NCBI RefSeq assembly: GCF_030848495.1
Contig: NZ_JAVDDT010000002.1
Span: 372,001 to 436,000, forward strand
Direction: 5' to 3'
Origin: Natronospira bacteriovora
GTDB taxonomy: Bacteria > Pseudomonadota > Gammaproteobacteria > Natronospirales > Natronospiraceae
DNA length: 64,000 nucleotides
A program made the translations under genes and the position numbers. The notes under the pieces were generated by a model. That model was not told the origin of the DNA and made no database searches. It saw only the letters and a program-made list of their open reading frames with translations. Positions 7,291-54,271 of the stretch are shown in pieces (the first letter of the stretch is position 1; each line of letters begins with the position of its first letter).

Positions 7291-8349
7291 ATGACGGACT
7301 TCTTCATCGAACAATGGGATGCGCTGCCGCCGGCGCTGCAGACGGTCATCACCGTCACGGCACAGATCGGCGTGCTGATGCTGGTGCTGATTCTGATGGT
7401 GGCGTATTACACCTACGCCGAACGGCGCGTCATCGGTTTCATGCAGGGCCGCATGGGGCCTAACCGCGTTGGCCCCTGGGGGCTGTTGCAGCCGTTCGCG
7501 GATGTGATCAAGCTGGTGCTGAAGGAAATTATCGTTCCCAGCAACTCCAGCCGTTTCCTGTTTCTGATTGCCCCGATTCTATCCATTGCGCCGGCGTTTG
7601 CCGCCTGGGCCGTCATTCCCTTTGAAGACGGCATGGTGATTGCGGATATCAATGCCGGCCTGCTGTATCTACTGGCTCTGACCTCCCTGAGTGTCTACGG
7701 TGTGATTCTGGCCGGCTGGGCAGCCAACTCCAAGTACGCCTTTCTGGGGGCCATGCGTTCGGCCGCACAGATCGTGTCCTATGAGATTGCCATGGGCTTC
7801 GCCCTGGTGGGTGTGCTCATGGCGGCGGGTAGCCTGAACCTGAACGATATCGTGATGCGTCAGGACGGGGGTGTGCTCAACTGGTTTCTGATCCCGCTCT
7901 TTCCTCTGTTCGTGGTCTATCTAATTTCCGGCGTGGCCGAGACCAACCGGGCACCGTTTGACGTGCCGGAAGGTGAATCGGAAATCGTGGCCGGTTTCCA
8001 TGTGGAGTATTCGGGCACCGGATTTGCGATCTTCTTCCTGGCTGAATACGCCAACATGATCCTGATCTCGGCGCTCACGGCCCTGTTCTTCTTCGGTGGC
8101 TGGTTGAGCCCCTTCCAGGGTGTGCCGGTGATCGGAGAAACGTTCCTGGGTGAAGGCAGTATCGTCTGGTTCGCCCTGAAGACCTTTTTCTTCATGTTTA
8201 CCTTCCTTTGGTTCCGGGCGACTTTCCCGCGTTACCGTTATGACCAGATCATGCGTCTGGGCTGGAAGGTCTTCATTCCGATCACCATCGTCTGGATCGT
8301 GGTTCTTGGTGGCCTGATCCTTTTCGAAGTCGGACCGTGGTTCAACTGA
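7291..8349 (+). CDS. nuoH: NADH-quinone oxidoreductase subunit H
   Basis: NuoH is the membrane subunit that joins the quinone chamber to the proton-pumping arm. The protein has 352 residues with about eight hydrophobic helices. The conserved charged loops are present: [20 protein letters not shown] near residues 47-66 and the [16 protein letters not shown] segment near residues 216-231, whose acidic residues lead from the quinone site. The 70 bases before it contain a small GC hairpin (7227-7242) and no promoter that I trust. nuoI follows after 7 bases. Confidence 0.97.
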
Positions 8350-49849: not shown

Positions 49850-50602
49850 TCACTGCGCATCAAAGGATTTTCCGGTGATTCCACGACTTTCACGGCCGAA
49901 GAGAAACAGGTAGGTACCCATGATCTCTTCCGGCGTCAGCAGTTCATTCGGGTCCTCGGCCGGGTAGGCATCTGCCCGCATGTCGGTGCGGGTTGCCCCC
50001 GGGTTGATGGCGTTGATCCGGATGTTCTCCTTGTTGGTGAGCTCATCCGCCAGGGTTTCCATCAGGCCTTCGGTACCGAACTTCGAAACGGCATAGGCGC
50101 CCCAGAATGCCCGGCCCTTGCGACCGACGCCACTGGAGGTGAAGACCAGGGAGGCGTCGTCCGAAGCCAGCAACAGGGGCAGGCAGGCCTTGGTCATGAC
50201 AAAGGGGGCAGTCAGGTTGACGTGCATGACTTTCTGCCACTCTTCCTCGTCGTAATGGTCGATGGGCGCCCGGGTGCCCAGTATGCCCGCATTATGCAGC
50301 AGACCATCCAGGCGGCCCCAGGTTTCATTGACCTTCTGGGCGAGTTCCTGGTAATCCTCCAGGTTCGCCCCCAGCAGGTTCATGGGGTAGATCGCCGGTG
50401 TGGGGCTGCCATCCGCCTCGATCTGGTCGTAGACACTTTCCAGCTTGCTCACGGTGCGGCCCAGCAGGATCACCGTGGCGCCGTGGCGCGCGAAGGTGCG
50501 CGCGGCTGCACGGCCGATACCATCACCGGCACCAGTGACCAGGATGACCCGGTCCTTCAGCAGGTCAGGTGCAGCTTCATAGTTGCGCAGATTGCGTGCC
50601 AT
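49850..50602 (-). CDS. yciK: Short-chain dehydrogenase/reductase YciK
   Basis: The 250-residue product has the NAD(P)-binding motif VTGAGDGIGRAAA near residue 23, NAG in LLHNAGILG, and the active Tyr-Lys pair in GAYAVSKFG. The ILGTRAPIDHYDEEEWQKVMHVN stretch (here named from ILGT to HVN) is typical of the YciK group, whose substrate is unknown. In Pseudomonas the same gene lies next to mupP, ubiG and mtaD. In this window it is separated from mupP by the squalene-synthase-like gene. 67 bases downstream the unknown lipoprotein gene begins. Confidence 0.9.
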   Translation of the reverse strand: MARNLRNYEAAPDLLKDRVILVTGAGDGIGRAAARTFARHGATVILLGRTVSKLESVYDQIEADGSPTPAIYPMNLLGANLEDYQELAQKVNETWGRLDGLLHNAGILGTRAPIDHYDEEEWQKVMHVNLTAPFVMTKACLPLLLASDDASLVFTSSGVGRKGRAFWGAYAVSKFGTEGLMETLADELTNKENIRINAINPGATRTDMRADAYPAEDPNELLTPEEIMGTYLFLFGRESRGITGKSFDAQ

Positions 50603-50649: not shown

Positions 50650-51498
50650 TCAGCCGCTGATCCCGGCCTCCCGTCGAGCGACCCGCCAGACGGCCAGTAG
50701 CCTGGCCAGGGGGCCGATTCCACCTTCTCGAAAGTCCTTCCGCCGCAGTCTCTGCAGTTGTCGAAGGGGCAGGGCTGTCATCAGGGCAGCCATTCGCAAG
50801 GTTTTCCTTTCCTGCCCGCTCGGTGCCATTTCCAGTGCCTGGGCATGGCGCGCCTCAGCCAGCACCGCGATACCCTCCAGCAATTCGGCACGGCGGTCGG
50901 GTTCGATGCCGTCCGTGATCAGACCGGCAGCGTCGCCCCCAGCCATACGAATACGTTCTGCTGGAATCCAGCAACGCTGCTGCTGCCGTTCCTCTTCAAA
51001 GCCAAGGACGATATGCAGCAACGCCCGGGCCAGACCCAGGTCGCGAGCCGCTCTCAGGGTCGCGCCTTCTGCGGCTCCGGCCAGTCGGGCGCTGCAGACA
51101 GCCGCGGCGCCTTCATTGCGCCAGCAGTGCAGCAGCATTTCGTCATCATCATTATAAAGGCGAGCCTCGAGACGCATCAGCACGCCCTCCAGCAGCTCGC
51201 CCAGTTCCTCGCCGTCCAGTCGCTGCCAATCGGCCCGACGGGCCAGCGATTCAGTCAAGGGATGACTGGCGCGGCCATTCAGCAGGCGTTCCAATTCATC
51301 CCGCCACCAGGCCAGTTTTACCCGGGCGATGGATTCGTCGCTGACCGAGAATACGCTTTGCCGGATTTCGTTCAAGAGGGCGTGCAGAGCGATCTGGCCA
51401 TCACGCTGGCCCTGCGGCAGAAAGGGTCGGACGAGGCTGAGTTCCGGATCGCGGGCAATGGCATCCCGCAGCGCATCATGAGTTGCCATATCTGCCAT
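50650..51498 (-). CDS. Squalene/phytoene synthase-fold protein lacking Asp-rich motifs
   Basis: The 282-residue product has the all-helical fold pattern of squalene/phytoene synthases (COG1562). The two Asp-rich motifs that bind magnesium-diphosphate in active enzymes are missing. The first would fall at LHALLNEIRQSV, and the second at LGLARALLHIVLGFEEERQQ, where DxxxD is absent. RVKLAWWRDELERL and the CWIPAERI and LLAVWRVARR segments resemble NDUFAF6, a mitochondrial complex I assembly factor of the same fold. A non-enzymatic role is therefore likely. Its start is 9 bases after mupP, in the ubiG operon. The second ATG at residue 4 is also possible. Confidence 0.75.
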   Translation of the reverse strand: MADMATHDALRDAIARDPELSLVRPFLPQGQRDGQIALHALLNEIRQSVFSVSDESIARVKLAWWRDELERLLNGRASHPLTESLARRADWQRLDGEELGELLEGVLMRLEARLYNDDDEMLLHCWRNEGAAAVCSARLAGAAEGATLRAARDLGLARALLHIVLGFEEERQQQRCWIPAERIRMAGGDAAGLITDGIEPDRRAELLEGIAVLAEARHAQALEMAPSGQERKTLRMAALMTALPLRQLQRLRRKDFREGGIGPLARLLAVWRVARREAGISG

Positions 51499-51507
51499 GA
51501 ATCTGGT

Positions 51508-52206
51508 TCAGCCGTGGCCGCTGACGGTGTCAGTGCGACTCATGGCGAGGTGCGGACTCAGCCATTGCCGCAGGGCTTCAGGGCTTGCCAGGATCGCCTG
51601 CGCGCCCCAGCGGCCGGGATCGTCATCCTCCGGTAAATAGCCCCAGCCGGCCACCAGTGCCGGCATGCCCGCGGCAATGGCCGCCTCAATGTCTCTTGCC
51701 GCATCCCCCACATAGAGGCATTCCTGCGGTGCGCAGCCAATCGCCCGGGCCGCATGCAACAGCGGTGCCGGGTGGGGCTTGGCGTGCTCAGCCGTGTCGC
51801 CGCAGACCACGCAGGCAGCGGGCGGTTCCACGGCCAGGGCGCTCATCAGGGGTTCGGTCAACCAGGTGGGCTTGTTGGTGACAATACCCCAATGCATGCC
51901 GGCTTCGGCCACGCGGGCAAGCAGTGTCTGCATGCCGTCGAACAGGCGGGTTTCGGCGGCAATACGGGCCATGTAGGCGTCCAGCAGGCGCTCCCGGAGG
52001 CCGGCAAAACGGGCATCCTCATGACTCACGGCAAAACCGAGGGAGAGCAGGCCCCGGGCCCCGTCCGAGGCCACTGGTCGAATGCGCTCGGGCGGCAGCG
52101 CAGCACGGCCTTCCTCCAGCAGCAAGGCATTCAGGGCAGCGCCCAGGTCGGCGGCGGTGTCCGCCAGGGTGCCATCAAGATCCAGCAGCAGGGCACGATA
52201 GCGCAT
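51508..52206 (-). CDS. mupP: HAD phosphatase, probably N-acetylmuramate 6-phosphate phosphatase MupP
   Basis: The 232-residue product is a HAD-type phosphatase with the nucleophile motif LLLDLDGTLADT at about residues 6-17, the Thr and Asn of VTNKPTWL, the Lys of HAKPHP, and YVGDAARDIEAA. By sequence alone it would be called phosphoglycolate phosphatase (gph). In Pseudomonas the gene in this position, next to ubiG and mtaD, was shown to be MupP, which removes phosphate from MurNAc-6-P in peptidoglycan recycling. I infer the same here from gene order; substrate was not proved. Its start overlaps the ubiG stop by one base. Confidence 0.8.
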   Translation of the reverse strand: MRYRALLLDLDGTLADTAADLGAALNALLLEEGRAALPPERIRPVASDGARGLLSLGFAVSHEDARFAGLRERLLDAYMARIAAETRLFDGMQTLLARVAEAGMHWGIVTNKPTWLTEPLMSALAVEPPAACVVCGDTAEHAKPHPAPLLHAARAIGCAPQECLYVGDAARDIEAAIAAGMPALVAGWGYLPEDDDPGRWGAQAILASPEALRQWLSPHLAMSRTDTVSGHG

Positions 52207-52922
52207 CAGTCCGTCTTTCCGAAATGCATGAAGTAGTTGACGTCCACATTGCCGCCCATGTGGTAATCGCGGGTGAGCGGGTTGTAGTGCAGGCCAGTAC
52301 TGTCATGGTGTGTCAGCCCGACCTCGGCCGCCCAGCGGCGCAGTTCCGAGGGGCGAATGAACTTGTCATATTCATGGGTGCCCCGGGGTAGCAGCCCAAG
52401 CACGTATTCCGCACCCACGATGGCCATCAGCCAGGCCTTGGGGGTGCGGTTGATGGTGGAAAAGATGAGCTGGCCGCCGGGTTTGACCAGGCGGGCGCAG
52501 GCGGCCACAACGGAGGCCGGATCGGGCACATGCTCGATCATCTCCAGGCAGGTGACGATATCGTATTCCTGCGGCCGCTCATCGGCGTGCTCCTCCACAC
52601 TGCGACGCAGGTACTCTACCTTGAGGCCGGATTCCAGCAGATGCAGGTCGGCCACCGAGAGGGCGGTCTGGCCGAGGTCGATACCGGTGACGTCTGCGCC
52701 GTCGGCCGCCATGCCTTCGCACAGCAGGCCACCGCCGCAGCCCACGTCAAGCACGCGTCTGCCCGACAGGGGGCCGCAGCGCCGGCGGATGTAATCCAGA
52801 CGAAGGGGGTTGATCTCGTGCAGGGTACGGAACTCGCCTTCCGCATCCCACCAGCGCGAGGCCGTGGCTTCGAATTTCTCGATTTCGCCCGGATCCACGT
52901 TGCGGGCGGTGCGCTCACTCAT
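52206..52922 (-). CDS. ubiG: Ubiquinone biosynthesis O-methyltransferase UbiG
   Basis: UbiG performs both O-methylations of the ubiquinone ring with SAM. The 238-residue product has the SAM motif [16 protein letters not shown], then the acidic VTGIDLG strand and [15 protein letters not shown]. The C-terminal [18 protein letters not shown] is typical of UbiG. The ATG overlaps the mtaD stop by 4 bases, so coupled translation is likely. Complex I, encoded at the left of the window, uses the ubiquinone made by this pathway. Confidence 0.95.
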
Positions 52923-54271
52923 GATTGTTTACCCGTTGGCTGCCTGCTGCGGCGATTCTCGTCAATCTTCCGGCCCCACTCGCGTGCCCGTCGAGCAACG
53001 TCCTGTTCATCCATGGCGGTCAGACGTCCCGTCTGAAGCAGCCGTCGGCCGGCCACCCAGACGTCGCTGACCTGATCCCGGCTGGCCGCGTAGACGAGCT
53101 GGGAGACAGGGTTGTAGACCGGCTGGGTGGAAAAACGATCCAGATTAACGGCGGTCAGATCCGCCCACTTCCCGGTCTCCAGCGAGCCAATCTGGTCGTC
53201 AAGACCCAGGGCTCTGGCCCCGCCCAGGGTCGCCATGTGCAATACGCGACTGGCGGGGAGGGCAGCGGCATCGCCGGCTACGGTCTTGGCCAGCATGGCC
53301 GCGGTGCGCATTTCCCCGATCATGTCCAGGTCATTGTTGCTGGCCGCACCGTCGGTGCCAAGGCCCAGATTGACGCCGGCCGCATCCAGGCGGGCCGTCG
53401 GGCAGAAGCCACTGGCCAGCTTGAGGTTGGATTCCGGGCAGTGCAGCACCGAGGCGCCATGGGTCGCCACCAGTTCAACTTCTTCATCGGTGAGCTGGGT
53501 CATGTGAACACACAGCATGCTTGGGTTCAGCAGGCCGAGGCGCGCGAGGCGGGCCAGCGGCCGTTCTCCGTTCTGTGCCTCGGCATCAGCCACTTCCTGG
53601 GCCGTTTCATGCACGTGCATGTGCACTGCACAATCCAGTTCATCCGCATAGCCCCGAAGTTTTTCCAGGCTGTCGTCGGACACGGTGTAGGGGGCGTGCG
53701 GGGCAAAGACGAAGGAAATCAGGGGGTCGGCCTTGAAGTCATCACGCACCGCAAGACCCTTGCTCAGATACTCCGCGGGGTTCTGCGCCCAAGCACTGGG
53801 AAACTCGATCACAATCATCCCGACCGAGGCGCGCATGCCGTGACGGCTGGCCGTGCGTGCCACCACATCCGGGAAGAAGTACATGTCGTTGAAACAGGTG
53901 GTGCCACCTTTCAGCATCTCGGCGATGGCCAGCTCCGTGCCGTCACGCACGAAGTCCGGCCCCACGAAGGCACCTTCCGCCGGCCAGACATGCTCGTTGA
54001 GCCAGGTCATCAGTGGCAGGTCGTCGGCAAAACCACGCAGCAGGCTCATGGCGGCGTGGGTGTGGGCATTGACAAAGCCCGCGGTGAGCACATGATCAGG
54101 AAGGTTCACCGTCTCTTCCGCCACAAACCGTCGGCGCGCCTCGTCGATGGGTAGGACGTCCACGATTCGGCCATCGCGAACGGCCACGGCATGGTTGTCC
54201 AGCACCGTATCCTCGGGTGCCACAGGTACCACCCAGGCGGCTTCGATCAGGGTATCCACGGACTGGCTCAT
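52919..54271 (-). CDS. mtaD: Methylthioadenosine/S-adenosylhomocysteine deaminase
   Basis: This 450-residue TRZ/ATZ-type amidohydrolase has metal ligands in [10 protein letters not shown], the [10 protein letters not shown] His, and the aspartate of [14 protein letters not shown]. The homologous Pseudomonas aeruginosa gene, also next to ubiG and mtnA, deaminates methylthioadenosine to methylthioinosine. I infer the same reaction here, with mtnA a few genes away. It overlaps the mscS stop and the ubiG start by 4 bases each. The SAH-deaminase activity of some relatives cannot be excluded. Confidence 0.88.

Follow-up and report, generated by a model that had tools for sequence, protein, structure and literature searches.

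The gene that we followed up in a window of 64,000 nucleotides from Natronospira bacteriovora (the window being the whole stretch of DNA analysed) encodes what we read from its sequence as a catalytically dead descendant of HpnD, retained for a non-enzymatic role. In many gammaproteobacteria this former squalene-precursor gene is dead as an enzyme yet survives next to a ubiquinone gene, and its product probably has a second task other than catalysis. More specifically, we give a probability of about 0.6 to a reading in which hpnD decayed in place, its retained residues dock a partner, and the protein, no longer an enzyme, serves as a scaffold or assembly factor, most likely in the quinone/complex I branch. 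For dead-HpnD genes, the label squalene/phytoene synthase is misleading. Our literature search, weak in that it covered few subscription papers, returned no report of a dead HpnD in gammaproteobacteria.

Table 1. Features of the window, with positions counted from its first nucleotide.
Feature	Position	Strand	Basis or remark
nuoD and nuoH	2052-2945 and 7366-8307	+	in the window, ~43-48 kb from the dead copy
YciK-family oxidoreductase	49850..50602	-	model over cut-off
Predicted catalytically dead HpnD-derived SQS/PSY-fold protein, 282 aa	50650..51498	-	open frame, profiles, fold, alignment
Retained C-terminal helix, P263 to W271	50686..50712	-	71 dead copies
Second DxxxD motif site, now G166 to E170	50989..51003	-	alignment
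Retained A58, K61, L62, W64, W65, E68, H79, P80, L85	51244..51327	-	conserved in 71 dead copies
First DxxxD motif site, now R46 to F50	51349..51363	-	alignment
MupP/Gph-like HAD phosphatase	51508..52206	-	MupP and phosphoglycolate phosphatase models below cut-offs
ubiG	52206..52922	-	UbiG model 279.8 bits, cut-off 102.95
TRZ/ATZ family hydrolase (mtaD-like)	52919..54271	-	model over cut-off

The open reading frame is real and lies on the minus strand, which the earlier note on this DNA had left out; the three words quoted there, WWRDELERL (residues 64-72), CWIPAERI (176-183) and VWRVARR (270-276), are all present in the protein. Divergence from the nearest named relative, in a Natronospira genome (L025), is 0.39/0.34/0.62 at codon positions 1/2/3, and in neutral simulations, run at a chosen substitution level and without indels, the frame stayed open in 3 of 2000. 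This codon-position bias, together with the rarity of open frames under neutrality, indicates that the frame is more than chance. A functionless, decaying remnant of hpnD would fit the fast divergence of the gene (50% identity to the Natronospira relative, versus 86% for YciK and 83% for UbiG) and the HpnC-like frames that also appear decayed at the same place; open frames, the codon-position bias and a WW pair and HP turn that are near-invariant over 71 dead copies speak against it, and we consider such a remnant very unlikely.

The protein is matched by Pfam PF00494 (SQS_PSY) at 96.6 bits (cut-off 26). Its best NCBIfam match is HpnD (TIGR03465), with 121.2 bits, under the cut-off of 278.6, and it falls below the thresholds of both HpnC (TIGR03464; 29.2 bits, cut-off 250.45) and CrtB (NF042419; 35.3 bits, cut-off 480). 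No second PF00494 gene, and so no HpnC partner, was found in the genome (G000; 2,998,048 bases, 97.3% complete). An AlphaFold2 model built on an alignment of 61 sequences reached a pLDDT of 95.3, and the fold search gave whole-length matches to solved structures of CrtM/CrtB-type synthases (8is8, 5iys, 2zco; Z 26-27, rmsd 2.5-2.9) at an identity of 14-18%. The catalytic Asp motifs that we take these synthases to carry are missing in the dead copy. An NDUFAF6 structure was absent among the solved-structure matches listed, an absence that is uninformative. The proposal of a squalene-synthase-fold pseudoenzyme thus held, with the fold kept according to profile, model and solved relatives, and both DxxxD motifs gone.

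The absence of the two Asp motifs was confirmed column by column: where 18/18 active HpnD rows have DxxxD, this protein has R46/F50 at the first site and G166/E170 at the second. All four Asp are retained in none of the dead rows (0/38 in the first set, 0/20 among intermediates, 0/14 in an extra set), as opposed to 18/18 active ones. Two of the four remain, by alignment, in 10 dead rows, where residual activity may be conceivable. With the fold intact and E169 and E170 persisting in the second-motif region of the window copy, the protein might still be a prenyltransferase with unusual metal ligands, but the loss exceeds the Asp residues: of the positions that never vary in 15 active beta/gamma HpnD rows, many others are gone from dead copies too, and the replacements vary between lineages. 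We regard continued prenyltransferase activity as extremely improbable.

Other residues have been kept. WW is found in 70/72 dead rows and HP in 71/72 (one protein counted twice); over the 71 distinct dead rows, conservation is 0.99 for W64, 1.00 for W65, 0.90 for E68, 1.00 for H79, 0.99 for P80 and 0.93 for P263. Near-invariance of WW and HP in spite of the Asp loss suggests selective retention, even if a need for folding alone could explain the conservation. The motifs said to recall NDUFAF6 turned out not to be specific to it, since active beta/gamma HpnD also conserves KLxWWRxE, HP and the C-terminal helix, which are therefore HpnD words; across 14 alphaproteobacterial NDUFAF6-like rows, K is replaced by R in 14, E is kept in 0 and HP in 2. 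The dead copy thus shares with HpnD (TIGR03465) its descent, fold, operon slot and these motifs, and differs from it in lacking DxxxD, in scoring below the model's cut-off and in being the sole PF00494 gene in its genome.

The operon itself points to the same ancestor. The linkage to ubiG given in the earlier note is real, ubiG being the second gene upstream and likewise on the minus strand; what did not stand is the functional weight placed on this linkage, which was inherited from the slot of active hpnC-hpnD. One genome (G037, locus L138) carries HpnC (341 bits) and HpnD (390 bits), both over their cut-offs, in the slot mupP-rmuC-...-yciK, and another (G004, L126) has HpnC (331 bits) and HpnE (398 bits) over cut-off, with HpnD recognized by its motifs, in the same ubiG-mupP-rmuC-...-yciK slot. 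In three relatives (L127, L129, L133), a single dead copy occupies the slot with rmuC; in the window, the single dead copy stands without rmuC. Among 60 fetched dead-copy neighbourhoods, some of them cut by contig ends, UbiG was matched in 44, MupP in 43, YciK in 36 and RmuC in 18, and at least one of ubiG, mupP, yciK and rmuC was present in 54/60 and none in 6/60; HpnC counts were left out, as the HpnC query also matches dead HpnD copies. An accessory factor of ubiquinone synthesis, working with UbiG and binding polyprenyl intermediates, would agree with the UbiG count and with the retained isoprenoid-synthase fold. Active hpnD in the same operon makes the linkage older than the loss of catalysis, so that linkage to ubiG is not in itself a sign of a role with quinone or complex I, and some dead copies lie outside the ubiG operon; we hold this alternative to be quite unlikely.

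Remnants of the neighbouring pathway genes were seen at several loci. In L220 (G258), where the gene order is rmuC, dead copy, hpnE-like, yciK, and in L143 (G291), an HpnE-like match still adjoins the dead HpnD, and no HpnC was seen there. In L272 (4158-5726), the dead HpnD directly follows an HpnC-like frame lacking clear Asp motifs, and at the corresponding place in L213 (4458-5201) and L223 (8167-8796) lie frames that resemble HpnC remnants, either on visual inspection or through a weak match of 28% identity. An apparently degenerate HpnC frame and a dead HpnD at these three loci possibly form a pair of pseudoenzymes.

Intermediates that are 33-53% identical to active HpnD and lack the full Asp motifs bridge HpnD and the strongly diverged copies, which suggests that hpnD decayed in place. 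A first tree, with many long branches, was superseded by two later ones to which 17 intermediates were added and from which L023, L024, L084, L088, L090, L092, L158, L159, L163, L164, L166, L167, L180, L185, L199, L204 and 4 SQS rows were left out; long branches persist in the trees, and bootstrap values were still unsettled. With catalytic columns removed, all dead rows, the alphaproteobacterial ones included, formed one group (100/98), which joined the active gammaproteobacterial HpnD of L115 (97/97) within beta/gamma HpnD, while HpnC, CrtB and alphaproteobacterial HpnD fell outside. The earlier note had counted a place inside HpnC/HpnD against its own reading, and the dead copies do nest in gammaproteobacterial HpnD. 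In the all-column tree, the dead rows formed a ladder with weak forks, and nesting in HpnD became clear only after the catalytic columns were taken out. Dead copies and strong family matches also exclude each other: 0/58 dead-copy genomes were among the 98 with a PF00494 match of at least 263 bits (lists compared by eye; the 98 were chosen by score alone, also by eye, with most genes unread and perhaps a few CrtB-like ones among them), as expected if the two are states of one locus. Synteny, intermediates, motif counts and tree together support a loss of catalysis in place with the frame, the fold and a limited number of residues kept.

The earlier note had proposed that the protein resembles a complex I assembly factor, NDUFAF6. 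NDUFAF6 belongs to the SQS/PSY family and is without DxxxD motifs (PMC8007014). The 14 alphaproteobacterial rows share the lack of Asp motifs and the retained WW with the gammaproteobacterial dead copies but carry R in place of K61 and lack E68 and, in most cases, HP, and 13 of them form a clade of their own (100/99 or better, in two trees). In the two alphaproteobacterial loci examined (L202, L186), the NDUFAF6-like gene adjoins a PF04430/DUF498 gene, presumably of the NDUFAF3 family. In view of this neighbour, we take these Asp-less bacterial proteins to be the putative NDUFAF6 line. The best trees place them within the dead group. In AU tests without catalytic columns, holding the gammaproteobacterial dead rows apart gave p 0.124 and holding these together with beta/gamma HpnD apart gave p 0.121; in the first tree (all columns, other rows), the values were 0.075 and 0.024. 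A separate origin of the alphaproteobacterial proteins is thus not clearly excluded, and their common origin with the gammaproteobacterial dead copies is possible, being the best tree but not significantly so.

Complex I was compared across genomes. NuoD was over cut-off in 318/370 genomes; NuoH was checked in the 52 with missing or weak NuoD, and 8 of these gave a strong match, so that 43/370 count as lacking complex I (the 52 less those 8 and less G382, where NuoD is matched and NuoH is not). The three apparent exceptions with no or weak NuoD (G125, G383, G071) all have NuoH. The 58 dead-copy genomes are those inspected among the 370, further matches to query A2 not being counted, and in keeping with the earlier note 0/58 lack complex I by NuoD/NuoH profiles. 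A possible exception is G175, without NuoD and NuoH yet with a match to A2 (1.7e-56). Complex I is present in 58/58 dead-copy genomes versus 269/312 others (Fisher p 0.0006, genomes treated as independent; p 0.007 with G175 counted as a dead copy). As proof of a role this co-occurrence was rejected, because genomes with PF00494 matches of at least 263 bits show it equally: 96/98 have complex I (lacking in G130 and G205), with p 0.53 against dead copies. A complex I role for dead HpnD is possible.

On these data, the protein might belong with NDUFAF6 proper as its bacterial relative, in which case every dead copy, the alphaproteobacterial and mitochondrial ones among them, would share a single loss of catalysis and a function in complex I assembly. 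The trees that join the alphaproteobacterial rows with gammaproteobacterial dead copies, the DUF498 neighbour and the complex I count favor this reading. The AU values, the equal co-occurrence of strong PF00494 genomes and the alphaproteobacterial lack of E68 and mostly of HP weigh against it, as do the many genomes that have complex I without the gene, the E. coli control among them with a complex I family match and no PF00494; we think it unlikely. Rather doubtful, too, is the related conjecture that one proteobacterial loss of HpnD catalysis gave rise to a respiratory assembly factor, with gammaproteobacterial dead HpnD and alphaproteobacterial/mitochondrial NDUFAF6 as one family. If true, this would make the human complex I assembly factor a descendant of a squalene-pathway enzyme of gammaproteobacterial type.

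In our preferred reading, decay in place with retained docking, the ancestor would be the presqualene diphosphate synthase HpnD in an operon ubiG-mupP-rmuC-hpnC-hpnD-hpnE-yciK. Many gammaproteobacterial lineages, this one included, would have given up squalene synthesis by the HpnC-HpnD-HpnE route; hpnC and hpnE would have vanished or decayed, and hpnD would have shed its metal- and diphosphate-binding residues while staying in the slot. The set kept, namely helix 55-73 (W64, W65, E68), the H79-P80 turn and the C-terminal helix, may dock a putative partner, and such docking may have been a second role of HpnD that predated the loss of catalysis, leaving a protein that today would act without catalysis, as a scaffold or assembly factor, close to the respiratory membrane. 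Its partner would most likely belong to the respiratory quinone/complex I branch (complex I, ubiquinone enzymes or other). Since active, intermediate and dead forms share one operon slot, it can be asked which residues outlast catalysis, and should a respiratory partner dock on the retained residues, a bacterial system would be at hand for testing the unexplained role of NDUFAF6.

Hopanoid loss as an explanation was dropped: squalene-hopene cyclase was found in 2/38 genomes, and most genomes with active-type HpnD were also without it. In the active-type genomes of that set without the cyclase, squalene may have a use outside hopanoid synthesis. Two loci (L141 in G029, L142 in G005) carry, besides dead HpnD, a separate SQS-type gene of ~360 aa, a possible replacement of the pathway.
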